A stretch of DNA of 64,000 nt from Mesostigma viride (lineage: Eukaryota > Streptophyta > Mesostigmatophyceae > Mesostigmatales > Mesostigmataceae), in assembly GCA_009746045.1 (NCBI GenBank), contig RPFO01000175.1, positions 1,127,001-1,191,000 of the forward strand. Reading direction: 5' to 3'. A program made the position numbers and the translations under genes. Below the pieces are notes generated by a model. It was not told the DNA's origin, made no database searches, and saw only the letters and a program-made list of their open reading frames with translations. Below, one piece after another: positions 2,244-59,421 of this stretch (position 1 is its first letter; every line of letters begins with the position of its first letter).

Positions 2244-2313
<70 letters not shown>

Positions 2314-9973: not shown

Positions 9974-10109
9974 TCTATTAACCGTGGAACTCCAGGGTAA
10001 CCAGACTCTTTATTAAAACAATGAGTGGAGCACATACAAAAGGCAGGCCACATCCCGGCCGCCGATGCTCATGGGAACACTTATTGCTTGGCAAAGGCTA
10101 GCCTTACCC
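9974..10109 (-). repeat. YR-1 b2 repeat (outer 3' end)
   Basis: Identical in length (136 bp) and near-identical in sequence to b1 at 20787-20922. In sense orientation it carries CCACTCATTGTTTTAATAAA, which includes an AATAAA signal. Confidence 0.88.
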
Positions 10110-10134
10110 CCAAACACGCAGGGAGGGTGGGCGG

Positions 10135-10289
10135 GAAAAGAAAAGAGGCCAACCTTAGCTAGGTGGGTTTGTTTTTGTCCTTTTTTGCGTGTCATGCGGC
10201 CTTGGCCCGGACGGCATTTTTTCGCCACGCAAATGTTGCGTCTGAACAAATGACGCAATGTGGCGTTCTAATTGCCGGCAGCTTACGTA
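10135..10289 (-). repeat. YR-1 a2 repeat, first part
   Basis: Matches 38224-38382 (a1) except for a 4-bp indel. It is interrupted at a TA by TA-1 and resumes at 20509. Confidence 0.9.
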
Positions 10290-10329
10290 CAGGGTCAGCT
10301 CACTTCCTTAGTGATTTCACTAATTCGGT

Positions 10330-10612
10330 AGATTAGTAATTCGATTGTACTAACGATTCGAGATTGCGATCCCGGGTTCGATCGGATACTCGTACTAATC
10401 TGTCGAATTTGGGGGGTTTCGACTTCAGTGACTTCAGTCAGACCCGAGTCATTAGTGGAAGTAACGTACTAACCATTCGCATGATTAGCAAATTGAATGA
10501 TGTCAGACTAACGAGCCGAATTCATTGTACTAATGAAGCGAATTCACACTAAAGAAGCGATTCTGGCACTAACGAAGCGATTCTGGCACTAACGAAGCGA
10601 ACTCCAGCGTCA
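10330..10612. repeat. TA-1 left subterminal repeats
   Basis: Repeated CACTAA/TACTAA words followed by GAAGCGA-like boxes, ending with two tandem copies of TTCTGGCACTAACGAAGCGA-type sequence. The same words occur at 15153-15290 near the other end. Such arrays are often transposase-binding sites; that role is inferred. Confidence 0.65.
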
Positions 10613-10758
10613 CTGATGCCAGCCTGTTACATATTGTGCGTCCTTCTGTGCTGCGTGCAGCGATGGCCACCGCAAGCGAGTAGACGTTTTTTTGTGGCTG
10701 ATAAACAATAATCAAGAGTGTGGTTGCAATTAATTTGGGCACTGTCGGCAACATAATA

Positions 10759-11247
10759 ATGTCCGACGTCGGGTGGAGGGAAAAATATGCCAATATCGTA
10801 AAGGGGGTCAAGGGTTTCCTGGGACAGGTATCCCCTGGTAAGCATGCTGACATTCTGCAGGCGGCAATGGCAGCTGCCGGCAGTGCTGAGCCGGAGCCAG
10901 CCGTGCCTGCAGCTGCCATTGCCACTGCAGACGCGAACGCCGCTGCGCAGGCCGGAAAGGAGGCGTGCACGCCGCACGAGCCTCTCCCCTCCCCGATGAA
11001 GCGCAAGCGAACGAAGCACATCTTTCGCTCTAATGATGAGAAGGTGAAACTGGTGGATGACTTTGTAGCGGTCAAGGACAGCATGCAGGAGCGCGGGTTT
11101 TTTACGAAGTGGTGCGCAGAGAAGGACGTTCACCCCAACACCGTCAGGGGGTGGCTGAAGAATCCCGCCAGGGTGCAACAGATGAAGACGGGCAAGAAGA
11201 CGGCAAAGGCGGTGCCCAGGATGGTGGAGGGCAAGACAGCCCAGTAA
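10759..11247 (+). CDS. Helix-turn-helix protein of TA-1, possible transposase first exon
   Basis: The frame from the ATG at 10759 gives about 162 residues: an Ala-rich linker, a basic KRKR segment near residue 86 and then FFTKWCAEKDVHPNTVRGWL, which fits the helix-turn-helix of CENP-B/pogo-type transposase N-termini. A GTAAGT lies at about 11244, so the stop at 11247 may lie in an intron and this could be exon 1. Downstream lies a minisatellite with no DDE motifs, so the rest of the transposase is missing or was not recognised. An in-frame GTG at 10720 exists, but ATG 10759 is preferred. The protein presumably binds the TIR or subterminal repeats. Confidence 0.5.
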   Translation: MSDVGWREKYANIVKGVKGFLGQVSPGKHADILQAAMAAAGSAEPEPAVPAAAIATADANAAAQAGKEACTPHEPLPSPMKRKRTKHIFRSNDEKVKLVDDFVAVKDSMQERGFFTKWCAEKDVHPNTVRGWLKNPARVQQMKTGKKTAKAVPRMVEGKTAQ

Positions 11248-11489
11248 GTCTAGTGTATACATATGTGTGTTGCCATTTAGTTCTGCACCTGTGTCTGTCA
11301 AAATTAGGTGTTTCTGTCCAAACGAAGGATGTGAAGCATTCGAAGCATATCTGGCCAGTTGGTTAGCACTTGGTTAGCAGCGTTCTGATTTGTTTCTCAC
11401 TCGTTTGCCCGATGCATGCATACAGCAGTTAACGTATGGTCTACTAAACCAAAGCATTCATGCCTATCCATGCCAATGTGAATGTGTCT

Positions 11490-12510
11490 ATGCCTGCCCC
11501 CCCCGACACCCACGCACGCATGCCAGCCCCCCCCCACACCCACGCACGCATGGCAGCCCCCCCCCACACCCACGCATGCATGGCAGCCCCCCCACAAACC
11601 AACGCACGCATGCAAGCCCCCCCCCACATGCGTGCATGCCAGCCACCCCAAAAAACCACGCACGCATGCCAGCCACCCCACACACTCACGCACGCATGCC
11701 AGCCCCCCCCCACACGCACGCATGCATGCCAGCCATCCCCCACATGCACGCATGCATGCCAGCCACCCCACGAACCCACGCACGCGCATGCCAGCCCACC
11801 CTAAACGCACGCACGCATGCATGGCAGCTCCCCCCTCACCCCGCATGCATGCCAGCCCCTCCACACACCCACACGGAGGCATGCCAGCCCCTCCACAAAC
11901 CCACGCACGCATGCCAGCCACCCCCACACCCACGCATGCATGCCAGCCCCCCACAAACCCACGCATGCATGCCAGCCCCCCCCACACCCACGCATGCATG
12001 CCAGCCCCCCCCCCCACGTACCCACGCATGCATGCAGGCCACCCCCCACACACATCCACCGCGCATGCATGCCAGCCCCCCCACACACACACGCATGCAT
12101 GCCAGCCACCCCCCACACCCACGCATGCATGGCAGCCCGCCCCGCGGCCCCACATGCATGAATGGCAGCTCCCCCCCACGGCCACGCACGCATGCCAGCC
12201 CCCCCACACACACACGCACGCATGCCAGCCCCTCCCACACCACGCACGGATGCCAGCCCCCCCACACACCCACGCACGCATGCCAGCCCCCCCCACACCC
12301 ACGCACGCATGGCAGCCCCCCCCACACCCACTCACGCATGGCAGCCCCCCACAAACCAACGCATGCATGCAAGCCCCCCCCCCACATGCATGCATGCATG
12401 CCAGCCACCCCAAAAAACCACGCACGCATGCCAGCCACCCCACACACTCATGCACGCATGCCAGCCCCCCCCACACGCACGCATGCATGCCAGCCACCCC
12501 CCACATGAGA
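11490..12510. repeat. About 30-bp minisatellite, 1 kb
   Basis: Roughly 33 degenerate copies of a unit reading CACGCACGCATGCCAGCCCC plus a C-run. The unit is close to 30 bp, a multiple of three, which is why long frames stay open on both strands. They are not genes. GCATGCATGC palindromes recur within it. Confidence 0.93.
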
Positions 12511-13086
12511 TCAAGGTGTAACATTCTTATCGATTGCCACACAAGGCGTCCCTGCCCCTTATTCTCTTTGTGCAACGGCGTAAGATAGGGATACAAACCA
12601 CGATGCTTACTGTGCTCAATGTCTTCCCAACGGCAGCATGCTTATACATTTAATAATTAATTTACCATTGCCACAGTGCCATCATACCATGGCCACTATT
12701 TGTATCAAGGAGACAACCAGCGCAGGCTATTTGTATATCAAAGAGAAAACCATATTACTTGTATTAATTAATTTGTCAAGGAGAAAACCATCTACCTACC
12801 TAGTTAATCAATTAGTTAATGAAACATAGCTATTTATCAACCGGCGGTAGTCATGCATCCAACGGATTTCAGAATGGTGTTTGACATGAATCACGGCCCA
12901 CGGGCTTGAAGGTGTCTTCAATAGTACCTTCAAAGAACAGCTAGTAGAGGACATGGGGGGCCTAGGACTCTCCGTGATTTGGAACAAGATGATGGACAAG
13001 GCCAAGTGGGCCCAGGTCATAGAGGACAACGAACCCCCTCCCGTGGGGAAGCGCCCGCGTTTGCAAATATGCGGGAAGCGCGCTTG
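12511..13086. other. Non-coding spacer in TA-1
   Basis: I see no gene or named element between the minisatellite and the LINE-type tail. Confidence 0.5.
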
Positions 13087-13172
13087 ACAATTCGTCCATC
13101 CATCCATCCATCGGGGTTAATGCTCCGTGACTCCCCAACGGGAGCACGAGTCTAATTAATTAATTAATTAAT
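13087..13172 (+). repeat. LINE/SINE 3' tail with terminal hairpin (copy b)
   Basis: Contains (CATC)4, then GGGGTTAATGCTCC, the hairpin GTGA-CTCCC-CAAC-GGGAG-CAC at 13127-13147 and a (TTAA)n tail at 13151-13172. Same layout as copies c, d, e and f. Confidence 0.65.
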
Positions 13173-13264
13173 GGTACCAAAGTGGGGATCCATGCCTAGG
13201 TCCTCAAAATTGACTTAGTTTGGCATGGTGTTTGGCTTATGGTGTTTGGCTAATGGTGTTTGGC

Positions 13265-13357
13265 AGGAATGGTGTTTGGCTAATGATAATAAATAGCACA
13301 CCTTATTTTGTTAACAGGAATGGTGTTTGGCTAATGATAATAAATAGCACACCTTAT
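13265..13357. repeat. 51-bp tandem duplication
   Basis: A block starting AGGAATGGTGTTTGGCTAAT and ending GCACACCTTAT occurs at 13265-13306 and again at 13316-13357, next to the CCCA tract. Confidence 0.85.
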
Positions 13358-13999
<642 letters not shown>

Positions 14000-15150
14000 C
14001 ACCACACCATCCAAGGCTGCCTGCCTCCTGTGTGTCTTCCAGGTCCAGACCAGCCTGACCTGGTAGTGTCGTCAGCTTGCGAGCGTTCCCACGTGCCTAC
14101 CTATGTGGCTGGCAACATGCGTAAACCCATTCATGCATGCGTGCATGCACGCATGCGACCATATTTGAACATATCTGTCCAGGCCTGCCAAAACATGACC
14201 ATGCAAAGATACACGCAAACTAGCGTACCAGCGGCAAGCATGTGTGCAAATATAAACGGCTGTTCGCCTGCCCCTCTGCCTGCACTTCATCCTGCCTGTC
14301 AGTATGTCTGCCGACACAGGATGCAGGAGGGAGGCCGCCTTCCACAGGCTAATCCCACCAAGGAAATGAAATAAAGCGCATAAAAGCAAAGCAACCAACA
14401 GCAAGAGGCAAAAGGTTACATAGATGAATGCCATATGCAAGACGTATGGACAACATGACACTCAAGGCGCCATAATACCCTGAGCATCCATAACATTGAC
14501 GCAGTCAGGTGCGGCAATTTATAAATGCAGGTGTTTGCGGCCGTCGAATCCACGGCAGCGGTGCCAGACGGAAGGACAGCACACATCCTAGGTCCCGCAA
14601 AGAATTTCTTCAGCGGCCACCGACAGCACCGGAAAATAAAATTCCAGCAAGAAACGCAACAAACAATAACAAACCCTGACTAGACCTCCATTTTCAACCA
14701 CCCTATCACCCTAAACCAGAACTGCGGCTCACCAGATGCTCCGGAGGTCAAGCAGTATCCAGTTTTCACTTACGCACGTTTCCGCAGTATTCTCACGGCA
14801 TTCCCACCGGCAGCTACCTCGGTCCGCCCCAAAAATGCTGTACGATGGAGCCCATGGATGTATCCCGCATTCGACGCCTTTTTGAAGTGATCGCGTCACG
14901 TAGGCAGCTGTAGGCACACGATTCACACGATTCCGGATAGCCCAGTTTTTCATTCTTTGAAAATCGCAATCGGTCGCTATATGCATGACTCCAACCTCAG
15001 CGTGGAGCGATGCAGACTGAGAAATGTAGCAATTATACACATAAGCACGAGATTTTTCACAGATTTCTTTCTGAAACGATTGTTTTCGCAGCAAGAATGG
15101 GAAATGCCGTCTCCATAGCTCCACGAGCTGACGACCTCGCCATCATACTA
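14000..15150. other. Non-coding interior of TA-1
   Basis: I see no recognisable gene. Short open frames occur on both strands but have no family signature. Confidence 0.45.
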
Positions 15151-15670
15151 ATGAAGTGAGTTGCATGTACTAATTATTCGCGTCGTTAGTGCTTTCGGAT
15201 CGGATTTGGTCGGGTACGAATTGTCACTAATCAGTATCCGACCAGATTTCTCGGGTAAACCGTACTAATGAACCGAAAATTGTCACTAATTAGAGAGTTT
15301 TTGCAGAAGCTTTAGATTTAGCTTCGACATGAACTCCTCACTCGTAAAATCGGGCGTAACCAAGGCCGAGTTTACGTAACGACTACGGTACTCAACGACA
15401 ATGGACGACTGCTGAACGGCGTCTGAATTCCGTATTTTTGGGGCCGAAAGCCGATGTATAGCGTCTTTATAAGGCCCGGTCTATACGGACTTTTGATAAA
15501 ATAAGATATAAGATGGAACGCGATTTCGCCGAATTTCGTGCGAATCTACTTTAGCTCAGATCGGTCGTCCGAGGGTGCAAAAACAACTTAATTCTGGCGA
15601 CCAGCTGGTGCACCTTTAATGCGAGCGCTATGAAAGAAAACAAGGACCGCGACGACGGTGATATCGAGCT

Positions 15671-15994
15671 ATGGCGGACAAGGTGTGGGAGCCCGAATCG
15701 GCGTGCCCAGCGGCCATGTCGACCGACCAGTCAGTTCCGGGCGTCGGCAGCATGCCTGAAGACGCTGCCGCTATGGCTAGGGACGCCCCCATGGGCGACG
15801 TCAGCCATGAGGGAGCAGACCAGCTACTTCCGCGGACCGATTTTTTTCGTTACAGCTGCAAACAAATATGTACCACTGAAATCAGGCATTTTCGCGGGAC
15901 GAAGGTGAAGACGACGGTGATGGCGGCAGGTAGATCTCGCCAGTTTTCGCGCGAATTTCAGTGGCTGTTGGGTGGCACGACCATGATTAATTAA
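15671..15994 (+). CDS. Hypothetical 107-residue ORF in TA-2
   Basis: An ATG-initiated frame about 380 bp inside the left TIR of TA-2. The first 60 residues are acidic and Met-rich; no domain is recognised. A GGCAGGTAGA sequence near 15925 could be a splice donor, making this a first exon. It may equally be chance. Confidence 0.2.
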   Translation: MADKVWEPESACPAAMSTDQSVPGVGSMPEDAAAMARDAPMGDVSHEGADQLLPRTDFFRYSCKQICTTEIRHFRGTKVKTTVMAAGRSRQFSREFQWLLGGTTMIN

Positions 15995-16025
15995 ACTCAT
16001 GCTCCCGCTGGGGATTCACGGAGCA
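15985..16025 (-). repeat. LINE/SINE 3' tail with terminal hairpin (copy c)
   Basis: On the minus strand: GCTCCGTGAATCCCC, loop, GGGAGCATGAG, then TTTAATTAAT. A short truncated relative of copies b, d and e. Confidence 0.5.
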
Positions 16026-17584
16026 CCGGAGTGCTTTTAATCCCTGTACGACCATGATGATGCGTTTCTAGGTTGATAATTGGGTTTCTACGAGTTTATT
16101 GAGGTACTGGGGCAAAGGAAACGTAGATTTTTCCAGTTTCTCACCCAACTTTCATGCGGAAACCCTGGAAACCGGCATACATATTATTACGGCAAGACTC
16201 GGTTCTGCTGCAGCACCATGCTTGGTATTTCCATGATGTATCGACTACGTAACACATGTTTTTTCATTCCGAACGCACGGACTCTCGGCTAAACGGAGAT
16301 TTTTGCAGACTTTTATTGGGTAGCTCCGGGCATGAGGGTGCCTGCAAATAGCGTAAGGCGTGACCGTGGCTATTGCTACGGTATGCTGTATTTTCCTGGA
16401 AATGGCCTCTACCACCGGCTCAAGCGTGCGTGCAGGCGTAAGTATATCGTGTGTCTACCTAGTTTCTGCCAGTTTTCCGCTTATTTCTACCAACCTCTGC
16501 CCAGCCTCTCTAAGACCGCCATCCTGCTCGCGGTTGCTTGCATGTCAGCCATAGCAGGGTGCAGTTGTGCAGTATTCAGGTGCTGCATGCGTCGTCAAGC
16601 CGTGCATATGTCGTGAGGATTGGATATTGATGGTTTATACTGCGTTGATTGTGCAAGAAGATCAGCTAGGTGCCCATGATAATGGTGAACAATCATGTGT
16701 TGTTAGTATCTTGCCAGCATTTGCTAGCATGCATTCCAGCGTCATCTTTGCCTGCATGTAAGCTCATGGATCACTCAACCTACCCAAGCCTTGAATTACG
16801 CGTGCCTCTTTCTTTCAGTATTGCACGCGTTATGGAATGAAAACCCAGCACCTCCCTTGCCACAAGGCACGTGCTCAACACATTGTGAGAGTGGATGATG
16901 CTTTGGCTGTGCCTGCCTGATTCAGTCATATGATGTCATCCAGTCATATGCTGAATGTTTGATGCCGTATAGCTTATACAGCACCCATTTTCAACGTTTT
17001 GACCCTCCTAGCTCATTATGGCCCCGTTTATGGGGCTCGTGTCGTTGCGTCATGTTGTGAAGGGCTCTCATTTCCCCCACTGCTTTGTACTGCCTTGCGT
17101 TTGTGATGCTAATGAAAAATAGCTCCAGTGGGCCTGAGTTTTGTTCCACAGAGCCTGCATATCTTGCCCATAGCTCGTGCAAGTAGCCAGATTTTTTTCA
17201 TGAACCACTTGACAGTGAATAAGCACATGACTAGTGACCTAGGGTCAACAAATTGCTGTCATGGTCAGACCCCCCTGTATTCAAACCAGTGTATCTCTCC
17301 AATGAGTTAGCATTGGATAGGTCTGAGTAGCTAAAAAAATCTTTTGATTTACGGGCTTTCAGGGAAGTATTGACTATTGACTATGGGGGAAAAAATTCCT
17401 AGATGGTATGACGTGTTCTATAAATTGCTCACAACGCAATATATGGCGCTCTAACAAAAAACACACAGGCAAAGGAATGGGCAAGATTTTGACATGTCTC
17501 ACTTCATAGAATCTTGGCTCAAACAATGAATTAATTTTAATTGGAATTCATTCATTCGTTCATGCCCATAGTTGCCTCCATTAG
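16026..17584. other. Non-coding interior of TA-2
   Basis: I see no gene. Only short open frames without family signature. Confidence 0.45.
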
Positions 17585-18066
17585 TTAATTAATTAATTAA
17601 GCTCGTGCTCCCGCTCATGGGGAGTCACGAAGCATAACCCCCGATGGATGGATGGATGGATGGATGGATGGATGGATGGATGGGTGGGTGGGTGGGTGGG
17701 TGGGTGGGTGGGTGGGTGGGTGGGTGGGTGGGTGGGTGGGTGGGTGGGTGGGTGGGTGGGTGGGTGGGTGGGTGGGTGGGTGGGTGGGTGGGTGGGTGGG
17801 TGGGTGGGTGGGTGGGTGGGTGGGTGGGTGGGTGGGTGGGTGGGTGGGTGGGTGGGTGGGTGGGTGGGTGGGTGGGTGGATGGGTACACGCAATCCTAAC
17901 GGTCTAAGCTATCTACAAGCTGACTACAAAAAAGTTGCCTCCATAGTTATAGAGTAGGACTGTTCTTTTTTTTTTGTAGATAGCTTAGACCGGTAGGATT
18001 GCGTGTACCCATCAATCCATCCATCGGGGGTTCATGCTCTGTACGGACTCCCCGGGAGCACGAGTT
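17585..18066. repeat. Foldback: two head-to-head LINE/SINE tails with a (GGTG)n tract
   Basis: The left arm (copy d) and right arm (copy e, 18026-18066) are inverted copies: GGGGGTT-CATGCTC, hairpin, GAGCACGAG. Inner arms also pair: GGGTACACGCAATCCTAAC-type sequence at 17882-17900 with its complement at 17993-18011, then TAGATAGCTTAGACC. The left arm alone carries (GATG)n (17643-17682) expanding into (GGTG)n (17682-17879). The right arm has only two CATC units. The tract therefore grew inside one arm after the inverted pair formed or inserted. Confidence 0.75.
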
Positions 18067-18112
18067 TACTAATGTCGAGTGGGCACAAGTCTGAAGCAAG
18101 CGGATGAAGATG

Positions 18113-18996
18113 GAATTAAATTAAATTAAATTAAATTATAACATGCCTCCGTGGGGAGGTCATGTAGCACATATTTCATGATGGATGGGGTGGAGGAAGC
18201 CGCGTGATCGAACTATCCTAACTCTATCTAGAAAATCCTAACTGCACTACTCATCAAAACGCCTCCTCCGCTTGGGGGGAGGTGGCTTGACCACAGGGTC
18301 GGGCGTGTGCGCCTTGACAATCTTCTTCCACCGCGTCTTGTCCTGCATGGCAGTCCAAAGACGGGAGAGAGAGTGGATGCGGTGCTCAAACTGGGCTGGG
18401 ACCACGAGGTCGTCCAGCAGCATCTGAACGTAGTTGGTGACAGGTTTCCCTACCCTTTTGGGAATGTCCTTGGGGCCAGGCCAGGTCAGAATGTGCCGCC
18501 CTGGCTGTCCAAGCCGCTGGGGGCCGGCCAGACCAAGGGTGGTGTCGACCTGGCTGGTGCGGGCAAGGTGTCCTACAAATGCTATCCTACGCTGTCTAAT
18601 CTCGTCCGAAACACGAGGCATGCCATGATACAGAGACTCTGATGACGGACGCTCGGAAAAACCTACATTAAGGACCTGCCGGAGCATCCTGTAAACTGTG
18701 CCGTCGAGCCGAGCTGCCAGTTTGGGGGGGAGGGTCCACGCCTCGGCGCCATACGTGAGCACCGTGAGGACGAGGACCTTGAAGAGCATGCGCTTGCGGT
18801 GCCCGTTCAGGCCCTTCGAGCGCCAGTAGGGTGTGAGCGAACGGAGCTTGGCCCAGGCAAGGCCGATGCGGGTGTCCACATCGTCGGCGGTGTCAGGAAG
18901 CCAGCTCCCCAACAGCTTGAAGCGGTCGCGGAACGGGACCTCCGTCCCGTCGAGCAGGCGCGGCAGCGGTGGTTTACTGGATGCTCCTATCACCAT
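18113..18996 (-). pseudogene. 3' end of a LINE (RT C-terminal region and 3' UTR)
   Basis: The minus-strand frame 18996-18247 encodes 249 residues ending at a stop. It has FKLLGSWLPDTADDVDTRI, then LTYGAEAWTLPPK and later QRRIAFVGHLART, the pattern of the segment after the RT core in many non-LTR retrotransposons. The catalytic RT core (F/YxDD) lies upstream and is missing. The 3' UTR (18246-18113) ends with GTGCTACATGA, a hairpin (18141-18165) and a (TTTAA)n tail, so the 3' end is complete and the 5' end truncated, typical of target-primed reverse transcription. Confidence 0.85.
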
Positions 18997-20426
18997 CGCC
19001 TCAGTTTGGGATGTCCATATTGATCAAGCTGTCTAGTAAATTATTTAATTGCTCGGCAATTTACACTGTAGACTGCGTCACGTAACTGTCTAGTTGTCTC
19101 ACTTAATCTAGCTTCTAGCTATGACTTGCGATGATAGTTGTCTCACTCAATATTTTATTAGAAGGGCAGCTGGCATTCACAAACTTGGCACTTGTCCAGG
19201 ACTAGAGCAATTGTCTTAGTGACTTGATCCTAACGGCCGAGTATGATTTTCATGAGTTAGTCTGAGTTATGATTAAAAATTATTATGATCTCACTTAATA
19301 ACACCTCATACCCTGAATAGACGTATAGCACATCTATGCGCACGTGCTGGCCATTGATTAAGAATGTTTCTTGCCTGCGCTGGTTGTCTCCTTGATGTTG
19401 TAGCACCAGGGCGGCAGCACGCCCTGAACGTTCTATCTATGAACCCGAAACTGAAAAGTCGCACATCTGTACCTGTTTTGGCACAAATAATGTTTGAGAA
19501 GCCCGCTAGCTGAGGCACCCATATGGCAGGCGCGCGAAATAACTATGAAAAGGTCGACAAGGTGTGCGTTAATACATAGCGCATTAATGACTTCGTATGC
19601 CCATGAATGGACCTCACAAAACCTCTTAATTCTTTGTATTAAGGGGAGGGTCCCATAGAAATATATCAAAACTTACCCCCCCTAATAACTACAGAAATGC
19701 AACTGACAACCACTGAATGATGTTTGGGGACCATAAACATGATGTTTGGGCATGCGAATAGTACTGTGCCTGCCTGATGGAGACAGACTAACAAAAGGCA
19801 CAGCCCCGCGTCTCCGCCACAAACGTACCGACTGGCCTTTCTAGATACCTTCGGAATTCGCAATGCTTTGCGGACCTGGGAAATCAAATGTCGGCCCGTT
19901 GGAACCTTGATTGTTGCAATACGTCTAGGACAGGGAGCGACCGATTGATATTGAAATATGGCCATACTCCGCGTACAAGGGAAACCGAATGGACGTAACA
20001 GGGCTGGCACAAGCCGTCGCAAGTTCCACCACTGGGATGATCAACGGACTTGTCTTTATAAAAAATTGCCCCGCTCAGCCTCAATGCCCATGCGGCATAA
20101 ATAAACTAGAATGCAGCTGCATACGCCTGCAGTCTTAGCGACGTAGCCTTGGAAATGCTGTAGTACGTCATTTTCGAAACCCGCAATAAAATTGTAGCAA
20201 CCGGCTATGACTGCGGCGCAAGCTTCCGAATAAAATTAAAATCGCGCGCAGGTACCCGCCGCCATCTTCGTGTTCACTGCACTTCACACGCAACGACGTG
20301 CGGTTTGAACGCGCGCCGACAGGGTCGAAGCGCGCCGCCGGCGCCGGGGTGCACAGCCGTACCGGTGAATTAAGAGCTGACGGTCGTAACGGCATACCGT
20401 ACGACGGTTTTTACCTCCGTACAAGT
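18997..20426. other. Non-coding interior of TA-2
   Basis: I see no gene. A CpG-rich patch near 20240-20400 with CGCGCGCC-type sequence lies just inside the right TIR and could hold promoter sequence for a leftward transcript; this is speculative. Confidence 0.4.
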
Positions 20427-20508
20427 TCATGTCGAAGCTAAATCTAAAAGGTTGCAAAAACTCTCTATTGAAGTGCCGAAATCACTAAGGAAGTGAGCTG
20501 ACCCTGTA

Positions 20509-20786
20509 AGGCTGCCGGGGCTATTAGGTCACATATTGCGTGAGAGAAAGAATCTAGATCTAGTTAATCACTACGCCATGAGCCAAGCAAACTAGACAGT
20601 GGCAGGTTTATATCTCAACGTAGCTCCTGCCACCTGGCCAAGAAAAACTGGCCAAAGTGTTGGCCACGACTGATCCGGATCAGGCCGCACCGGCCTCAAA
20701 AGGTATGTCACGTGAACCCAATAACCTAGCTATAGCGGCTACCCTTCCATCTCACTATAAAGAAACTATGTTCAGAGAACCACGAT
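20509..20786 (-). repeat. YR-1 a2 repeat, second part
   Basis: Continues the a2 repeat after TA-1. It matches 38383-38667 except for an 8-bp indel and ends ...CACGAT, where b1 begins without a gap. Confidence 0.9.
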
Positions 20787-20922
20787 TCTATTAACCGTGG
20801 AACTCCAGGGTAACCAGACTCTTTATTAAAACAATGAGTGGAGCACATACAAAAGGCAGGCCACATCCCGGCCGCCGATGCTCATGGGAACACTTATTGC
20901 TTGGCAAAGGCTAGCCTTACCC
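20787..20922 (-). repeat. YR-1 b1 repeat
   Basis: A 136-bp copy of b2 (9974-10109). The b1|a2 junction (sense AATAGA|ATCG) is the same sequence that would form if the element ends were joined in a circle. Confidence 0.88.
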
Positions 20923-20994
20923 TTATATCCCTCCCTGGCGATCCATGCCAGGGGCAAAGAACCTAGCATAATGACATAGAAATGAACAACCAAA

Positions 20995-22126: not shown

Positions 22127-22131
22127 GACCG
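22127..22131. other. Copia-3 target duplication (left), GACCG
   Basis: GACCG precedes the left LTR and recurs at 29885-29889 after the right LTR. Removing Copia-3 and one copy restores the YR-1 coding alignment with YR-3. Confidence 0.9.
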
Positions 22132-22653: not shown

Positions 22654-22697
22654 TGCATTTATAAAACTCTCACAGTTTTTCATCTCTATCATTCAAA

Positions 22698-26585: not shown

Positions 26586-26589
26586 AGGG

Positions 26590-28986: not shown

Positions 28987-29362
28987 AGTGCCTCAGCCTA
29001 GGGCTATTAGCACCAGATAGGAGGGTGGTCATGGGGTGGCAGGGTCTGAAGTGTCCCACCCGTAAGACTCTCTTTGCGTCATTAAAGCTTGAGGTCAGAA
29101 GGGTCCTCCTTTATTGATGGCTTGTTCTTTGTCAATAAAACGTGTGGTCATATTTTTCTGGCAATGGTTTTTCCCAACACAGGCACCCAACCAGTGGGGA
29201 TGTTGTATCCAACACGGAGGAGCTATGGGCGCTTTTATAAATGCATCTCTTTCAGTGTCCTGGTTGTCCCTGTGGGGAACCTTGCTTATCAGTAGTGGTT
29301 GGCATATGAGTGGGTTGTGGGAAGAGTCTTCCCCTCACTCCCCAAAGAAAAGTAATAATGGG
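28987..29362 (+). other. Copia-3 3' untranslated region
   Basis: Non-coding stretch between the RNase H stop and the right LTR. No strong polypurine tract is seen; the last bases are AAGTAATAATGGG. Confidence 0.5.
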
Positions 29363-29884
29363 AGTTATTCTAGGGCTTCAGGCCTAGACTATCAGTACAC
29401 GTGGCGTTGTCCCCGTCTCCCAAGTGGGATACGGACATGGACGGTAGTGTAGTACACTGGACATATCTCTACTAGGATTTAGATCCGCACGTGCCATGAT
29501 GGGCACGTGGGTGCTAGATATTAGCACTGAGATATGCAGTGCACACGCACGTGGGTATTCACGTGGTAGGGTTTATGAGCTGTGATGCAGACCACAAGGT
29601 GGTTGCAGTGCTAGTCCTGTACGGAGGTCCTAGGGGAGGTCCAGGACTGTCCACGTAGTGCTGTTAGGCAGTCGTTGCCTGCGGGCATCGTATCAGTCCT
29701 AGCTGGAGTAGATCTAGCTGGACGGAGCCAGCACCTCATTGGTTAGCACTAGTGCAGGATAGCTAGGTTACCCTAACCTACGTGCCCATGCAATCCAGCT
29801 TGGCAAGCTTGCATGGGTTGATATTATGCCAGCCATTGCATAATCCAACACACGTTCGCATCCATTTGCACGAGTGCATTAACT
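29363..29884 (+). repeat. Copia-3 3' LTR
   Basis: 522 bp, matching 22132-22653; followed by the second GACCG (29885-29889). Confidence 0.95.
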
Positions 29885-29889
29885 GACCG

Positions 29890-30116
29890 CCCCTTAGCCA
29901 ACTAAGCCAAGCAGCCCAACGCCGCGGTGGAGTCCACCAACCTCACCACCCGCTTGCCTCGGTTGGCCAAGCTGCGCGCACTCCTCTCCACGCCCTTCAC
30001 TGCAGCCCGCACCTCCTTCTCGTTGATGTGCATCCCCGGATCCCGCCAACGACTCCTGACCCCAACCCGCCATTGCTGGCTAGTGATTGCTTGTTGCGCC
30101 CGCGCGCTCAGTGGCC
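29890..30116 (-). pseudogene. YR-1 RNase H fragment between Copia-3 and TA-3
   Basis: Minus-strand coding for WRVGVRSRWRDPGMHINEKE...VRLVDSTAALGCLA, aligned to residues coded at about 51530-51700 in YR-3. It keeps the Glu (NEKE) and Asp (DSTAAL) of RNase H. It links the recombinase part (20995-22126) to the RT part (35286-36996). Confidence 0.88.
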
Positions 30117-30825
30117 TACAGTACCAACCCGCGGTAACGCAACTAGTTACGCAACTAATCAAAAAAAATTAAATGACGTATTTATATGAAGGAAGTGTAG
30201 GGCTACCCAACGCCACCTTCCGTTGCGTAAAAGCTTATGTCTACAGAAAGATACGGGGTCAGGAAGAATCGCCATAGCCAGTTCCGCAAAAGGCACTCAC
30301 CGATTTTGCGGTTCCGCAACGAGGGAGAAACGCAACAAACATGGGGTACCCTCGATGTAGGGGCCAATAATGAACTGACGCGTTGCGGTTAAAAAGGATG
30401 CGGCGGAAGTCAGAAGTCTGAAATTGATCGATCCTCAGTTATTACGTCTGGCTTCCTCGTATTTACGAAAGGTGCGTAAGGGCTGCCACCGGTACGTACA
30501 GTACGTAGTACCAGGTCCGCCATGGCATATCGACGTGTTAAAATTTGGCATACACGCCAAAATTAATTTTGCCCGACAGGCTCATGAAATATAATGTGTT
30601 CGCTTGGACTGTTTATATGTACTGAAAGCATAGCATCATTGACGATGGCTTGTGCGAAATCCTCACATTAATATGTAAAGTACTAATCGTGGATCGGACG
30701 TGCATAACGTGCATGTACCAAAAAATTTGTGGGCGCGGTGTACGTATTTTTCACACTTGATCATCGTGAACCGGCGTGTACCCTCGTCCGGCGCACGCAT
30801 TACATACTACATACACGTGTACGTA

Positions 30826-30912
30826 CGACAGGACAACAGCTATCTATCAATGATGATAGATAGCTGTTTGTCCTGTCGGTCATTGATAGATAGCTGTTGT
30901 CCTGTCGGAGAT
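30826..30912. repeat. Three-armed palindromic repeat
   Basis: CGACAGGACAACAGCTATCT-type sequence occurs three times in alternating orientation within 87 bp, each containing GATAGATAGCTGT. It can fold into competing hairpins. Confidence 0.85.
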
Positions 30913-31019
30913 AGTACAACAATTACAATACATTATCACTTGATCTTAGCTTGCAATTTATAAACATTAAATCATCATTTTTAAAAGGAACAAATATAAT
31001 TGATCATCCACAAGTCCGC

Positions 31020-31085
31020 CTGTAAGTGGGTGCACACGGGTGTACACTACGGGTGTACACAGGTGTACACGCCGGGTGTATTATG
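31020..31085. repeat. GGGTGTACAC repeats
   Basis: Four or more GTGTACAC-like palindromes in 65 bp. Confidence 0.7.
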
Positions 31086-31099
31086 TAGTAGAAACAGCC

Positions 31100-31335
31100 C
31101 GGTACATGCTCTACTACCAGTCTGCCACACGCTAAGTGTCGTTGGTATGTAGCTAGTGGCGTGACCCACAACGTCGTTGTGGGTCACGCTCCACTTCGGT
31201 CTACTGCCACACGCCGTGTCGGCGCTTGGTATCTACATCTATGTGGTGGCGTGACCCACAACGTCGTTGTGGGTCACGCTCCACTTCGGTCTATGTACTG
31301 CCATGCCACACGCTAAGTGTCGGCGCTTGGTATGT
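31100..31335. repeat. Tandem units each with a perfect 31-bp palindrome
   Basis: Two full units of about 88 bp and a partial third. Each full unit carries GCGTGACCCACAACG-T-CGTTGTGGGTCACGC (about 31162-31192 and 31250-31280), followed by TCCACTTCGGTCTA and CCACACGC...GTGTCGG. Confidence 0.88.
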
Positions 31336-31444
31336 AAGCTTACTGTATTTAGTCATTTTAGTGGCGTGATCCACAACGAAGCCGATACATGTGTACCCTC
31401 ATCTGACACTTATGTACTAATACCGTCTCTGACACATATGTAAG

Positions 31445-31870
31445 TACTAATAATGCCGTCTCCCAAGGTACGCAATCTACCGACTTGCGTGCTCAAGGGG
31501 CCGGTTTTCCCCCGGGTGCGCACTTCTCAGAATCGCACGACCACACCGCGCGCAACCTGGAGTGTGCGTTTGAAAGAAAACAATGCCATTTCCAAAGGTG
31601 TAGGTACGCAATCTATCGACTTTACTAGGGAGTGCGTAACTAGGGAGTGCGCAAGGGGCCGGTTTCCCCCCGGGTGCGCACTTCTCAGAATCGCACAACC
31701 ACACCGCGCGCAACCTGGAGTGTGCGTTTGAAAGAAAACAATGCCATTTCCAAAGGTGTAGGTACGCAATCTATCGACTTTACTAGGGAGTGCGTAACTA
31801 GGGAGTGCGCAAGGGGCCGGTTTCCCCCCGGGTGCGCACTTCTCAGAATCGCACGACCACACCGTGCAAC
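31445..31870. repeat. 158-bp tandem repeat, about 2.5 copies
   Basis: GTAGGTACGCAATCTATCGAC recurs at 31599 and 31757 (period 158), with a diverged first copy from about 31460. Each unit includes CCCCCCGGGTGCGCACTTC. Confidence 0.9.
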
Positions 31871-32734
31871 CTGAAGTGCGTGAATTGGCACCGTGCGCGT
31901 TTCGGAAATGCACGACTTAGCCATGGCGGCTTTGCACCCGTGCTTGCAATTTACTGTACGTTTGCGGACGAATTTCCCGGCCAAACTCAGGAAATAGAGC
32001 TTATACGTCCCAAATATGATTCGGATCAATTTTTAGCTCGCGGGGATGCGATTTACCACGTGCCGTCAGTGTTCTTGCTGGGAAAAACTGCGATCAGGCA
32101 GGTTCGACGGAATTGATTACTACAAGTGCTTTACGGCGCAACCCGGCGGGTGTCTAGGTTTATTTAATTACTTGTTATCATGCATCGTCGTTGAATATAG
32201 GCAGCGGCAGTAAAGATTTGACGATTTTGACCACTCTGTCACATCACAGCTTGTGTGCCGCAAAGTGCCGCTTTTGCGGGCACTGCCTGGGCCAAGGTAA
32301 CGTTAGCCATGCAAGGTATGGCTGGTTTATCGTTCCCCCATGGTTTCCTGACGTTTGTAAATGAATTTAATCTTGTGAGGCGTTGTCACTTTTCAGCCTT
32401 GATGATCTTTCTCGACCGTTGCCTGGCCCTCTCTAAAGCCCTCTTTTTTTACCATGCAAATGCCACACCATGGTGTGGTAGTGCATGTTTCTAACGCTAA
32501 ATGCGTTGAATAACATTCATAGATGTTATTTATTCTTTTGCTACGTTCATATTGCGTGATTGTTTGGCCATGGGCTGCTTCAAGGGTGCTTTCAAGCTTA
32601 TACGGGTGATAGAAAATCTTGGTGACAAACCATGGGCATAATGTGCCAGTCAGTATGCTGGCCATGTCATGTCAAAATAAACAGTTTAGCCAGGAGGAGG
32701 AGGATTATAAGATGCTGAGCTGGGCTTACAACTG
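31871..32734. other. Non-coding interior of TA-3
   Basis: No gene recognised. A CCATGGCGG at about 31920 resembles the CCATGGC context seen about 120 bp inside the ends of related elements (39255, 41895, 35025), so it may mark a lost start codon. Confidence 0.35.
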
Positions 32735-32935
32735 TTTAGGGTTTAGGGTTGTGATGGTTGGATGGTTGGGGGCTGCAGCTAGCGTGCGTGGATAAATAGT
32801 GGTTGGATGGTGAGGATTTGCTGCCATGTGTGCATGGATGGTGGTGGGATGGTGGGGGGTTGCAGCCATGCATGCGTGGATGGTGGTGGGATGGTGGGGG
32901 GTGCAGCCATGCGTGCATGGATGGTGGTTGCAACT
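32735..32935. repeat. Minisatellite, TTTAGGG-flanked
   Basis: Two TTTAGGG units (32735-32748) are followed by about four units of GGATGGTGGTGGGATGGTGG plus GCAGCCATGC sequence. These are the reverse complement of the units at 33530-34080. Confidence 0.85.
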
Positions 32936-33028
32936 GCCCATTGTTCATGATCCAGGAAATTTACGGCTAGACTATGCGAAGTTGAATTGAATTATTTAAA
33001 TTGAATAGAATTGAATTGAACTGAACTG

Positions 33029-33425
33029 ACTTGAATTGAATTGAATTGAATTGAATTGAATTGAATTGAATTGAATTGAATTGAATTGAATTGAATTGAA
33101 TTGAATTGAATTGAATTGAATTGAATTGAATTGAATTGAATTGAATTGAATTGAATTGAATTGAATTGAATTGAATTGAATTGAATTGAATTGAATTGAA
33201 TTGAATTGAATTGAATTGAATTGAATTGAATTGAATTGAATTGAATTGAATTGAATTGAATTGAATTGAATTGAATTGAATTGATTGAATTGAATTGTCA
33301 ATTGAATTGTCAATTGAGTTGTCAATTGAATTGTCAATTGAGTTGTCAATTGAATTGTCAATTGAATTGTCAATTGAATTGTCAATTGAATTGTCAATTG
33401 AATTGTCAATTGTCAATTGTCAATT
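33029..33425. repeat. (TTGAA)n tract and 12-bp TTGTCAATTGAA repeats
   Basis: An almost perfect pentanucleotide run (33029-33285) passes into about eleven 10-15 bp units of TTGTCAATTGAA (33286-33425). Open frames here (Ser-Ile-Gln-Phe-Asn repeats) are not genes. Confidence 0.95.
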
Positions 33426-33529
33426 GAACTAAATTTCGTCTCATTTAATCAGTAAGCTTACTTTAATCCATTAATTATAATCCATGACTTAGAAGTATCA
33501 AGAAGTCCCTACATCCCCACCATCAAGGA

Positions 33530-34085
33530 CTCCCTACACCCCCATCATCCAACTACCATCCACGCACGCATGGCTGCAACCCCCCACTATCAAACCATCA
33601 TCCACGCACACATGGCTGCAGCCCACCACCATCAAACAACCATTAATGCATGCATGGCAGCATCCCCCCACCATCCAACCACCATCCACGCATGCATGGC
33701 TGCACCCCCCACCATCCAACCACCATCCACGCACACATGGCTGCAACCCCCCATCTTCCAACCACCATCCACGCACACATGGCTGCAACCCCCCACCATC
33801 AAACCACCATCGGCACGCATGCATGGCAGCAAAACCTCACCATCCAACCACCATCCACGCATGCATGGCTGAACCCCCCACAATCCAACCACCATCCACG
33901 CACAACACATGGCTGCAACCCCCCACCATCCAACCATCATCCACGCACACATGGCTGCAGCCCACCACCATCAAACAACCATTAGTGCATGCATGGCAGC
34001 AATCCCTCGCCATCCAACCACCATCCACACACGCATTGCTGCAGCCCCCCACCATTCAAGCACCATCCACGCACATACGCCATCA
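33530..34085. repeat. Minisatellite of CCACCATCCACGCA...ATGGCTGCA units
   Basis: About 11 units of roughly 48 bp, inverted relative to 32757-32935. With the AT-rich (TTGAA)n run in the middle the block forms a 1.3-kb imperfect inverted arrangement. Confidence 0.88.
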
Positions 34086-34324
34086 CCTCCTACAGTAATG
34101 TCCAACCACCATCCACAAAGCACGGGGCTTATGGATTACAAGGCATTCAGCACGCCTGAATGCATGTAAGGCATGGACCACAAAATTTGCAGATGGCATG
34201 CTGAGAAAAGTAAAATCTGATTAAAATGTAGCAATGCCGTTAATAACAGCAATAACGCCTAGAAACTGACCAGTCTTTTGCACGCTTCTTGGAACAAGGA
34301 CGCCGCCACCAGGCAGGTCAGGTC

Positions 34325-35060
34325 GGTTTCCTGACTACGCAATATAGACTCTCTAATACAAACTTTAAAAAATAAATGAAGCACGTGCAGCAAAATCAAT
34401 GTCTTCCTGGCCAGTTCTCGACAATCTTACAAGCACGCCACCGGAAACGTTAGTCAAAATAGCAAAAGCTGCGGGAAATTTGGCGAGGAAACAAAACGGC
34501 GAACAAAACGGTAAGAACATCCCGGAGATGACGCTAAAACCAAGCCATAACGGACTGTTCAAGCGCAAACAGATTGGTAGATGAGGTGCAGAAAAAGAGC
34601 CTTCCGCAGCAGGCCTGATTACCTGCCTGGCACGCGAGGAAAGCGAGTTAACCATGGCAGGCTGGAATGCGCTTCGCGCAGGCCTGCTTACTTTACCTCC
34701 GAAGGAAACCGGAAATGGCCACAAATCAAAGCTAATTCGCTTGATTCCTATTTCCTCACTTTAAACCCCTCCCTTTGCGTCGTTCAATACCAGGAATCTT
34801 GGCTATCACTCTGGCAAGAAGCCAATCTAATATATTCATCGCGGCCAGATTTGCGAATCAGACCCCCTCGCAACCGTGGGTTAAAGAAGGGCAGCGGTCT
34901 TTCATACCTAATGCATATTTCGTCAACAAAACATCTTTTGGAGTATCTTTCATACAGCATCGATCTCCATAACTTTTTTGCATTTCGGCCGACAAATTAG
35001 GCAAGTTTTCATGGAACGCGCACCGCCATGGCCACCTTCGCACGTATACACTACACAGCC
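34325..35060. repeat. Segment shared with 38910-39143 and 41434-41930
   Basis: Shared landmarks in order: GACTACGCAATATAGA, a C/A-rich coding-like stretch, GCGCAAACAGA-TGG, GGAAATGGCC, ATTCATCGCGGCCA and CGCCATGGCCACCT-CGCACG. Minus-strand frames on both copies show similar peptide (WPFPV...RPARSA), so a minus-strand exon is possible but unproven. Confidence 0.55.
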
Positions 35061-35285
35061 AGGCCCCTTTTACGTTCTGTACTTCTGTAGGTACATTACG
35101 TGTTGGGCCGGTGGTCAGCTCGTAACAAGTCAGTCAGTCTGTCTCGTGCGGAACTTCAAGTACGAAATTCGCCACCACTTTGGGCCGTATCGGTCCTTGG
35201 TAGTTACGCAACAAACATTCGATCGGTCGCCGTGGAAAGTACCATTGTTGCGTAACTAGTTGCGTTACCGCGGGTTGGTACTGTA

Positions 35286-36996
35286 GGGCCAGCGTAGGCC
35301 ACCTCGCTTGGTATGAGCAAAGTCGGGTACCCCCGCACCTCTCGTGCCCTCGCCAGCTCCGTCACATCGCCCGGCTCCATGGTTGCGTACACGACACCTT
35401 GCCCGTAGGTGGACGCGTCACTGAGATGCAACCACCTCACGTGCCAAAGGTGCGCTTCGGTCAACCCTTAGCATGGGAGCCAAGGCCAGGGCACACTCTA
35501 ACTCCTCCCGCACCCCGGCCCACAGCACCCAAGATCGCTGCCCCCACCCTTGCAGGCTGATGAATTTGAAACATTGCTGCCAAATGGACAAACAGCTGCG
35601 GCTTAACATCTGCAGCCACAACCACCGCCCCAAGATGGCAGCCAGCCCCTCGGCCGTAGCTCGGCCTCGAGTGAGTATACTGTAGCCTGCGTGTGGGCGA
35701 TCACGAGGTTGAGCTGCTTGACCGTTGGTTCCAGCACGCCGTTCCGTCGGTGCACCACCCCTAGGGCTTCTAGCTCGTCCCCTTCCAGGCTCGCCATCTT
35801 AGTCTTCTCCTTAGACGGCACAAGGTTGTTAGGGAGGTAGCCTTCCTCAATAGCGCGCGTGATGAGCTGGTTCACCGCCTCGCAGGTCCGCCCGTTGCTG
35901 GCCACCAAGTCATCAATGGTGATGGACAGCATGGGGGCAGGGGGGTTTTCTAGGTCAATCTGAAGCTCCCCGGCGCGCTCCTCCTTGTACTCGATGGCCA
36001 AGCGCAGTGGCTGGCCACACTCGTCGCGCACCAAGGTGAGCTCACCTGCGCTTGAGAGGTAGTTGACCTGGCGCCTCGGATCCAGGGCATGCCACCGGTC
36101 ATGTAGAGCACCATCTCATGGATGGCCTCCCCCAGCGCCACCGCATGGGAATGTCCCATGGCCAGCACCTTGAGCACGGGCCACACCCTCCGCCTCGGCC
36201 CTGCCAGACCTACGCTAGTCGACCACACACTAGGAAGCCCTTGGTAGTCCCACCACCACTCGGGCACCTCGATGGAGTAATAGTATGACACGAGGTCGCT
36301 CTTGGCGCAGTAGCACCAGCCCTTGATGTAGACCTCCACGAGGATGCCCAGGTGGGGTAACAGGATCTTGGGGGGGTCCACCGGCCCACAGCGGCAGGTT
36401 GCCCAGCTTCCTGTTGACGATGAACCGAAGCTCACCCACCCCCTTGGCCACTCCAAAGCAGCCATCCACCCACTTGGGCCGCCTCTCCCGGAACGCCACC
36501 ATGCCCACGCCCGCTGCCCGGCTCATGAGCTTGCCCCATTCAGCCATGGAGCATCCTTGGCTGGGCTTGGGCACATTCCAATACTTTGAGCTCGCCACGA
36601 CCGCTGGCTTGATGCAGTTCTCTTCGCTGGCATATATCTCCCGCCAGCTCGGCCGCATAGCCAACAGGTCGAGCAGCCGTGCCTTCCCCGCCACCTCCGC
36701 CTTTGGTATAAACTCACCGCGTCCGCGCGCAGTTGTTCATACTTATTCTGCTTCCCATATATTGCATCAGCACCTTCTTGCTCCTGGCCTGTCGCAACGC
36801 CCCCTACGCGGCGACTGTGCCAGGTGCAGTGCCTCTTGACCCTCGCAAGGGCCTCCTCCCTCCCCTTAGAGCACGCCCCTCTAGGGCTAGGAGGAGGGTC
36901 TTGCCCCCCCCCCCACAGCCAACGCACTACCTTGCATTGCAGTGTGTACTCGCGGTGGCGGCGCGTGGCACGCTGTCGCCGGCGTGCCGATCTCAC
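35286..36996 (-). pseudogene. YR-1 reverse transcriptase and RNase H N-terminus
   Basis: Minus-strand frames pieced by frameshifts near 36700, 36400, 36050, 35680 and 35450 align with YR-3 pol. Landmarks: SARRRQRATRRHREYTLQ (36990), KARLLDLLAMRPSWREIYAS (36690), RPKWVDGCFGVAKGVGELR (36480), motif A-like SDLVSYYYSIEVPEWWW (36300), motif C ITIDDL (35920), SKEKTKMASLEGDELEALG (35810) and the RNase H start DAST (about 35425). The coding strand continues across TA-3 at 30116. Order and motifs fit DIRS-type RT-RNase H. Confidence 0.85.
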
Positions 36997-38132
36997 CCTG
37001 CCCCACGCGGTGTACGCTGGCCTAAGTGGGTATGGCAGCGGGAAAGGGAGCGGTCCCGATGGGATTCTATTTCCCTACTTGTTGCATGAGCCTTGCTGAG
37101 CTTGTCCAAGAGGATCGCAGTTTGGAGAGCTGCCTTGACAGCCGGGGTGGCTGACAGTGCAGCCTCCTCCCCCAATGGCAGGAGGTGGCTGGCCACCTTC
37201 CACCCCCCCCCTCCTTACCCCTCCACCTGCAGCAAGGCCGCCACCACCCTCATTAGGTACTCCATGCCCACAAGCTCCCCGGCTGCTGAGCCCAGCTCCT
37301 TGAGAAGGGTGTCCATGGCCAATGCGATGTTCATGACAATTTTCCTGTTCTCCATGTTCCGCCAATTTCCAGGCTTGACCGTCATGACCCACAACCGGAT
37401 TCCCATCCCATTGTCGCTGGCGTCCTCCAACACCCCCGGCAGCACCCGCTCCGAAATCCGATATTTCACGCTCTTGGCTCGGCTTGGCAGCGCCACCCCT
37501 TTCGAGGCCTTGAAGTGGCTTCCCGCCCCCTCCATTCCTCCAAGCGCTGCCTTCAAACCTTGCATGAATTTCTCGGCTGCGACCTCCCCCTCCTCGTCCT
37601 CCTCGTCGTCCTGATTTTCGGTTTCCGGAGGTGCCCCAACGAATGTCGCCAACCTCGCCCTCATTTCCTTTCCGACAGCCCCCCCACCTGCCGAAACCTT
37701 GGCCGCGCCTTTCGGCCTGGCCATTTTTCGCTGCGCAGGTGTCGTTGGTGGCAGCGCCTGATCCTCCTCCTCGTCCGCCGCGAGATCTGCCACGGCCAGC
37801 AGTTTTTTTGCCACCAACGTTCCGTTTGGGTCACGTGCGTCCAACACATCGGCAACATCAACGTGATCGGCCAGCAACTGCACGACAGACTTCAGTTGGC
37901 TCGAGCTCCACGAGCTGGCGTCCGTCACCCAGTCCTCGGCACCGAAGACCTGCTCGACTGCCCCCACCGCCTCTGCGGGGCTGATGCACTTAATTGGCGA
38001 GTAGAGTGGCGAGCTGCTTCTTTTTGGCGCTGAAGGCGACTGGCGCGTGACTGGCGGCAGCAGCCCGCGGTGTGGGCGTCCCGTCCTCCCCGCACGCTGC
38101 CTGCCCTGCTGTAGCCTTGCGCCCCTTAGGCA
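36993..38132 (-). pseudogene. YR-1 gag-like protein
   Basis: Starts MPKGRK at 38132 like the YR-3 gag (MPKPGRK). An in-frame stop or shift lies near 37992. The main frame 37967-37215 has an N-terminal region (GAEDWVTDASSWSSSQLKSV), an acidic middle and then KSVKYRISERVLPGVLEDAS, shared with YR-3. After a frame break near 37210 the C-terminus continues to about 36993. No zinc knuckle is seen. The protein presumably packages the RNA; that role is inferred from position only. Confidence 0.75.
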
Positions 38133-38223
38133 TTGCTGCTCAGGGCCAAAAATGGCTCCGACAGTACAGGTTCGTCAAACCAGAGAGGTTCGTTTTCCCC
38201 TGGCTTGCTGTCGCCGCCCTCGT

Positions 38224-38667
38224 GAAAAGAAAAGAGGCCAACCTTAGCTAGGTGGGTTTGTTTTTGTCCTTTTTTGCGTGTCATGCGGCCTTGGCCCGGA
38301 CGGCATTTTTTCGCCACGCAAATGTTGCGTCTGAACAAATGACGCAATGTGGCGTTCTAATTGCCGGCAGCTAGCTTACGTAAGGCTGCCGGGGCTATTA
38401 GGTCACATATTGCGTGAGAGAAAGAATCTAGATCTAGTTACACTTGTAATCACTACGCCATGAGCCAAGCAAACTAGACAGTGGCAGGTTTATATCTCAA
38501 CGTAGCTCCTGCCACCTGGCCAAGAAAAACTGGCCAAAGTGTTGGCCACGACTGATCCGGATCAGGCCGCACCGGCCTCAAAAGGTATGTCACGTGAACC
38601 CAATAACCTAGCTATAGCGGCTACCCTTCCATCTCACTATAAAGAAACTATGTTCAGAGAACCACGA
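38224..38667 (-). repeat. YR-1 a1 repeat (outer 5' end)
   Basis: 444 bp, uninterrupted, giving the empty site for TA-1. In sense orientation it starts TCGTGGTTCTCTGAAC and ends in the pyrimidine run CCTCTTTTCTTTTC. The leader to the gag ATG then reads GAGGGCGGCGACAG, conserved in YR-3 (GAAGGCGGCGACAG at 45186). Confidence 0.9.
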
Positions 38668-39143: not shown

Positions 39144-39147
39144 TTAA

Positions 39148-49717: not shown

Positions 49718-49764
49718 ACACCGAAAGGGTAAACCGCTCCCCCTTCCCACTGCCTCTTCCTACA

Positions 49765-59419: not shown

Positions 59420-59421
59420 AC

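Follow-up and report, generated by a model that had tools for sequence, protein, structure and literature searches.

Among the retrotransposons that carry a tyrosine recombinase (YR), Ngaro-like and PAT/Toc3 elements encode reverse transcriptase (RT), RNase H and YR on one strand, have split direct repeats in the order A1 - B1A2 - B2, and leave no target duplication (definitions in PMC4157794 and PMC6681497). Kangaroo of Volvox carteri is a green-lineage YR retrotransposon, likewise with split direct repeats (PMC4157794). Retroelements with a 2A-like peptide have been described in a different retrotransposon order, the non-LTR (long terminal repeat) elements such as Trypanosoma cruzi L1Tc and animal APE-type elements (PMC4981915), where no recombinase is involved. 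StopGo translation is presented in PMC12846837 as largely viral and rare in cellular genes and, as far as that account extends, with no sign that plant viruses use it naturally. The element described here lies on the minus strand at positions 9974-38667 of a 64,000 bp stretch of the Mesostigma viride genome (C224:1127001-1191000, referred to as the window), and is a single YR retrotransposon copy, arranged A1 - gag/RT/RNase H/YR - B1A2 - B2 and interrupted by three later insertions. From comparisons across the genome, the locus is very probably a dead copy, riddled with insertions, that belongs to a young family of YR retrotransposons whose recombinase would be released by StopGo. An earlier interpretation of the window from its letters (the sequence-only reading) had recognized the element but not its most unusual feature, the StopGo/2A peptide that separates RNase H from YR. 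The element as such is of a known kind and well preserved; the part that appears new is the StopGo peptide in YR retrotransposons, and in the green lineage.

The searched genome comprised 440 Mb in 2,243 contigs (the published assembly of M. viride NIES-296 is given as 442 Mb in 2,363 scaffolds, with 66% repeats; PMC6947507). Eight further copies of the window family, designated family 1, were fetched from it and aligned with stretches of the window, and all eight have the same pieces joined in the same order without inserts. Chance can be excluded as the source of this layout, because all the copies (8/8) repeat the order of A1 and B1A2, and 6/8 have a complete B2 (L009 and L016 lack its end). 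L010, an undamaged copy, measures 5,497 bp and has a single open frame of 1,393 codons. A search of the whole genome with the polyprotein (33 candidates scored of 3,555, and 35 rows listed) found this frame uninterrupted in at least 21 genomic copies, or 21 of the 35 listed rows, and 18 of these score identically to the query. In the fetched copies, A1 and A2 are free of substitutions over 430 bp in 8/8 cases, while B1 and B2 are identical in four, have three differing sites in two, and are not comparable in the two whose right end is cut. Family 1 is young, given the lack of substitutions between A1 and A2 and the identity or near-identity of B1 and B2.

The YR domain was detected as Phage_integrase (PF00589, 29.1 bits against a cut-off of 27.1), and its catalytic residues R209, K243, R307 and Y339 are invariant in nine sequences. 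The predicted RT and RNase H lie upstream of YR and are assigned by homology, each without a Pfam match of its own: one of the relatives that align over 96% of the query is an RVT_1 protein, and among 13 aligned members RVT_1 was found in seven and DNA_pol_viral_C, weakly, in three. D340, E419 and D446, which together with D495 we take to be RNase H residues, are invariant in the aligned relatives, D495 nearly so. YR shares its frame with RT in the intact copies and is on the same strand, whereas the YR of Kangaroo is inverted.

By the features listed in PMC4157794, this structure appears Ngaro-like, a placement made by structure and not by tree: the internal pair of split repeats is downstream of YR, no methyltransferase was detected by Pfam at E 1, and zf-CCHC had no match at E 1 in the 1,393-aa open reading frame (ORF), nor did the separate gag ORF of family 2 have any Pfam match. 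The tree of relatives was made only from the relatives found. The sequence-only reading had called the element a DIRS-order retrotransposon with the layout of PAT/Ngaro types; the split-repeat YR retrotransposon stands, and of the two types the Ngaro-like one is favoured, since neither a methyltransferase nor a zinc finger was found. The PAT type requires a methyltransferase domain plus, in Pat1, a zinc finger (PMC4157794). It is possible, if somewhat doubtful, that the element is a PAT or Toc3 type that lost its methyltransferase; Toc3 is described as an algal PAT type without the zinc finger, and loss of the methyltransferase is reported to have happened more than once (PMC4157794), but there is no space for such a domain between RNase H and YR, and the internal repeats downstream of YR are like those of Ngaro. 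Unlike both groups, the algal elements encode YR in the same frame as RT-RNase H, with a StopGo/2A peptide as the join, and in family 1 gag is in that frame as well.

The Ngaro-like arrangement extends beyond family 1. Six YR families were recognized in the genome, 41-69% alike over the compared stretch, and the A1 - B1A2 - B2 layout is also found in families 2, 3 and 4 (in the family-4 copy A1 is cut by the end of the fetched stretch). All six have the StopGo/2A peptide exactly between RNase H and YR. In family 1 it is WVRDLTAEGIHPNPG|P, and the RNase H-YR junction of intact copies reads AGWVRDLTAEGIHPNPGPPAPVSY in 9/9 spanning places outside the window. The peptide is WVPDLTRCGDVHPNPG|P in families 3 and 6, WVRNLTADGDVESNPG|P in family 4 and WRRDLTSDGDVEANPG|P in family 5. 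The junctions read WVRDLTREGVHPNPGP in family 2 (6/6 places), W(V/I)PDLTRCGDVHPNPGP in family 3 (4/4), WVRNLTADGDVESNPGP in family 4 (2/2), WRRDLTSDGDVEANPGP in family 5 (3/3, with the variant WRRNLTADGDVEANPGP in one) and WVPDLTRCGDVHPNPGP in family 6 (3/3). Overall, outside the window the peptide is intact in 28/28 distinct places for which the stretch fetched covers the site, the places being a non-random draw from best-match lists in which copies of one family are nearly identical. Gag is in a separate overlapping frame in family 2 and in the same frame as RT-RNase H-YR in family 1; gag-pol coupling therefore varies from family to family, in contrast to the constant 2A site.

Two classes of StopGo described in PMC12846837 are pertinent here: motif 1, (R/K)DLTxE with G at position 12 (p12) and P at p15, and motif 4, DLTxDG with p12=D and p15=S, the two sharing the signature WV(R/K)DLTx[acidic]G, which is shifted by one residue between them. 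The upstream hexapeptides of the algal families match both, including the 1-aa offset: RDLTAE and RDLTRE correspond to motif 1, and DLTRCG, NLTADG and DLTSDG are motif-4-like. The two forms differ by one codon, that of a D present in the other families but missing from families 1 and 2. The core of families 4 and 5 is exactly the canonical DVExNPGP, fitting (D/G/C/N)(V/I)ExNPGP. Motifs 1 and 4 of RNA viruses such as Omono River virus (WVRDLTxEG(I/V)xPNPGP and DLTxDG-DVExNPGP) are nearly letter-identical to the algal peptides, which differ from them in residing in a DNA-integrated streptophyte element and, in four families, in having H at p14. At this composition the chance of a 2A core is 5.6e-9 per position. 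When a profile of four families was searched against the PDB, GWVRDLTEEGIEPNPGP of Omono River virus came first (E 1.8e-5), with XerD behind. Two alignments were also used to scan viral contigs, and no relative was found there.

Selection on the peptide was assessed from the proportions of synonymous (pS) and nonsynonymous (pN) differences. The codons of N, P, G and P vary synonymously between families while the peptide is unchanged, and over the 16-17 motif codons pS is 0.46-1.04 and pN 0.03-0.30 between families. In 15/15 family pairs the motif has a lower pN than the 12 codons that follow it, although these pairs are non-independent.

Several observations weigh against a StopGo function at this site or against its breadth. 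Motif pN is lower than YR pN in 13/15 pairs, with one tie and one higher, and lower than that of the preceding 12 codons in only 9/15, where RNase H ends and gaps leave few aligned positions. Four of the six families (1, 2, 3 and 6) have H at p14 and thus are without the canonical E. The family-1 polyprotein alone gave GWVRDLTEEGIEPNPGP of Omono River virus, and not a recombinase, as its top PDB match, but weakly (E 0.0011) and with no single stretch over threshold by itself, while a PDB search with family 5 returned no match at E 1. Among the copies, truncation of the 5' part of L006 at this point leaves it just PNPGP, and the 2A stretch is absent from both L002 and L004. The six families are one clade in the YR tree (97/97), as are the four with RT sequence in the RT-RNase H tree (99/98), so they do not represent six independent gains. 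Lastly, of five distant proteins that reach YR, four (P0003, P0004, P0012 and P0016) lack NPGP there.

It could be argued that NPGP serves just as a structural linker or as a site for a protease, and that a fused RT-RNase H-YR protein is made. The motif does sit in an inter-domain linker, its skipping activity is a prediction, and four families have H in place of E; on the other hand, W..(D/N)LT..G......NPGP is conserved through synonymous codon change while the rest of the linker is not, its pattern is that of two published StopGo classes down to the 1-aa offset (PMC12846837), the rare p14=H was more than 95% active when tested (PMC12846837), and the same peptide is present in an unrelated RNA virus protein. 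We consider this explanation improbable. Release of the recombinase by viral-type StopGo is likely to be a feature of the whole YR clade of this streptophyte alga and ancestral to it, the motif-4 and motif-1 forms having been interconverted by loss or gain of one codon.

The fifth distant protein, P0017 (1,519 aa, from another source), has GLRIGEAENPGP directly before YR, at residues ~1185-1200, to which the known upstream motifs could not be fitted. It may represent a second, unrelated StopGo in YR elements, and the strategy may therefore have arisen more than once. P0017 also has a methyltransferase-like stretch.

Under StopGo release, the element would be transcribed as one long message, and translation of the polyprotein would run from gag across RT and RNase H as far as the 2A peptide, where the ribosome would fail to join Gly to Pro and release a Gag-RT-RNase H protein ending in NPG. 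It would then continue, making the recombinase as a separate protein that starts with Pro. RT would stay with the particle and the recombinase could go separately, a possible benefit of the arrangement. During copying of the RNA, B1A2 would stand in for the joined ends as internal template, and the product would be circular DNA, which the recombinase would insert at a short A-containing core by strand exchange, without a target duplication.

To our knowledge, the production of recombinase relative to RT in YR retrotransposons is poorly understood. If StopGo operates here, it would give YR elements a means of setting the RT : recombinase ratio and location, and green-lineage elements would count among the natural users of StopGo. 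StopGo would extend to a second retrotransposon order and to green organisms, at a fixed inter-domain place in six algal families. With motif 1, motif 4, p14=H and p14=E all represented, these families also form a natural series in which the importance of individual residues could be tested. No report of 2A in YR retrotransposons was found in the literature consulted; Rao 2025 (PMC12338488) and Odon 2013 (PMC3708506), two references of PMC12846837, were outside its scope, and prior mention there is possible.

Four Mesostigma gene models in EukProt (P0002, P0005, P0010 and P0018) are ORFs of these YR retrotransposons. P0005 (predicted M. viride protein, Mesvir1) is 100% identical to the polyprotein over the stretch covered. 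P0002, a near relative of the family-2 element in the window, skips from RNase H to mid-YR in the manner of an intron, so that gene models on these elements are affected: this one omits the 2A stretch. At the gag-pol join of family 1 there is a run of G (L010:3250-3300, same place elsewhere), which has eight G in some copies, where gag and pol form one frame, and nine G, or one extra G upstream, in others, where gag ends and pol is in another frame. This variation was seen in six of the eight copies matching the probe, and could reflect slippage or homopolymer assembly error.

The features of the window copy, its inserts and the second YR retrotransposon of the window are as follows; leftover coding pieces were matched singly and unspliced by tblastn against the L010 polyprotein.

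38224-38667, minus: A1, split direct repeat on the left, 444 bp long (other copies ~432 bp); its outer edge forms the element's left end
37044-38139, minus: gag-region pieces, polyprotein aa 1-361; two frames and a stop (tblastn)
35285-37191, minus: gag end, RT and RNase H start, aa 314-943; frame changes and stops (tblastn)
30119-35285, unstranded: insert III, terminal-inverted-repeat element 30119-35283; 37-bp terminal inverted repeat, TA duplication 30117-30118 / 35284-35285
29884-30117, minus: RNase H piece, aa 944-1018 (tblastn)
22132-29889, unstranded: insert II, Copia LTR retrotransposon 22132-29884; GACCG duplication 22127-22131 / 29885-29889
20998-22131, minus: RNase H end, 2A site and YR, aa 1017-1393; one stop within YR (tblastn)
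21928-21975, minus: 2A site of the family-1 copy, WVRDLTAEGIHPNPGS, decayed (ends NPGS); ...NPGP in 9/9 spanning copies elsewhere
20787-20922, minus: B1, internal repeat
20509-20786, minus: A2, first part, adjoining B1
10290-20508, unstranded: insert I, terminal-inverted-repeat element 10290-20506; TA duplication 10288-10289 / 20507-20508
10135-10289, minus: A2, second part
9974-10109, minus: B2, the element's right end, identical to B1
44799-52701, plus: second YR retrotransposon (family 2), 99% to L023; interrupted from ~46030 to 49431
51867-51914, plus: 2A site of the family-2 copy, WVRDLTREGVHPKPGP, decayed; HPNPGP in 6/6 other copies

The repeat pairs proposed by the sequence-only reading were borne out by alignment. 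B1 and B2 show no difference over 136 bp, and A1 has no substitution against A2 (20509-20786 plus 10135-10289) over 432 aligned positions, where 12 gap positions represent two small extra stretches, both in A1. These stretches (window 38380-38450) are 8 and 4 bp long and are missing from A2; one has TA at either side, resembling the footprint of an excised TA-duplicating transposon. The minus-strand order a1 - coding - b1a2 - b2 is the layout of the other genomic copies, and the claim that b1a2 mimics a circle junction agrees with the junction itself, which reads AATAGA-A-TCGTGG, that is, the right end fused to the left end. The coding pieces had been expected to be collinear as gag-RT-RNase H-YR, and when matched one by one to the intact 1,393-aa polyprotein they run in order as aa 1-48, 49-361, 314-705, 679-815, 813-899, 898-943, 944-1018 and 1017-1393. 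The copy is dead, given its stops and frame changes, LGISEAL in place of the LRISEAL of intact copies in the region of the first catalytic Arg, and a 2A site ending in NPGS. In the family-2 element of the window, the match to L023 ends at 52701, short of the YR end.

The presumed later origin of three segments, amounting to about 23 kb, also held up: each of the boundaries 10290-20508, 22132-29889 and 30119-35285 is confirmed by the target duplication of its own insert, other copies join the pieces without them, and the three inserts with one duplicate each come to 23,144 of 28,694 bp (81% foreign). Insert I has terminal inverted repeats that begin CAGGGTCA and are exact over 28-29 bp, and its first 101 bp recur at 85-100% at 40 or more scored places (best 40 of 48 candidates). 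The LTRs of insert II (22132-22653 and 29363-29884) do not differ over 522 bp, and RVT_2 was detected within 26425-28335. The first 101 bp of insert III were found at 100% in 40/40 scored places (best 40 of 179 candidates). Inserts I and III are left unclassified because the ORFs tried gave no Pfam match.

When the flanks of the window copy were joined, they matched end to end at 40/40 scored places (best 40 of 255 candidates), and in the 4/4 places read by letter the empty site is exact, TGAC|ATGG, with no target duplication. Together with the detected YR domain, the unduplicated site agrees with the original identification of a YR retrotransposon. Such sites match what strand exchange of a circular form by the recombinase would produce. 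Counted by locus, left flanks end in AA in 9/13 cases and the right flank starts with A in 9/9. Two points do not sit well with recombinase-mediated integration: the left flanks are not uniform, AA being present in only these nine, and in L009, where B2 is cut, 14-16 bp of the target occur as a repeat that the recombinase route leaves unexplained. An element-free site related to that of L009 is present in the window at 39144-40000 (39590-39650), and the L009 insertion possibly took another route. That the repeats and fragments of 9974-38667 are unrelated elements lying together by chance, as the 81% of foreign sequence might suggest, is next to impossible and was rejected on the undamaged copies, in which the pieces are joined in unchanged order and free of inserts, and on the empty sites, where the flanks meet exactly, the inserts having target duplications of their own.

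Two more Copia retrotransposons are present in the window. That at 59383-63717 has an open frame of 1,444 codons with integrase and RVT_2, while the one at 1486-6275 was scanned over 1486-4536 only. A search of the window with Rfam found nothing. Elsewhere in the genome, three of the four best PF00589 rows are on contig C2011, and these strong bacterial-type tyrosine recombinases suggest that the contig is bacterial. Whereas families 1 and 3 are scattered, family 4 (YR ORF 756/734) is tightly clustered, once per contig, and falls within ~120 kb in all 13 contigs with at least two listed rows (best 150 of 824 candidates). Examples are C1579:2619577-2734282 (at least seven rows, on a contig of 10.1 Mb), C1480:2261816-2314837 and C1391:761019-807647, and these clusters may mark centromeres.

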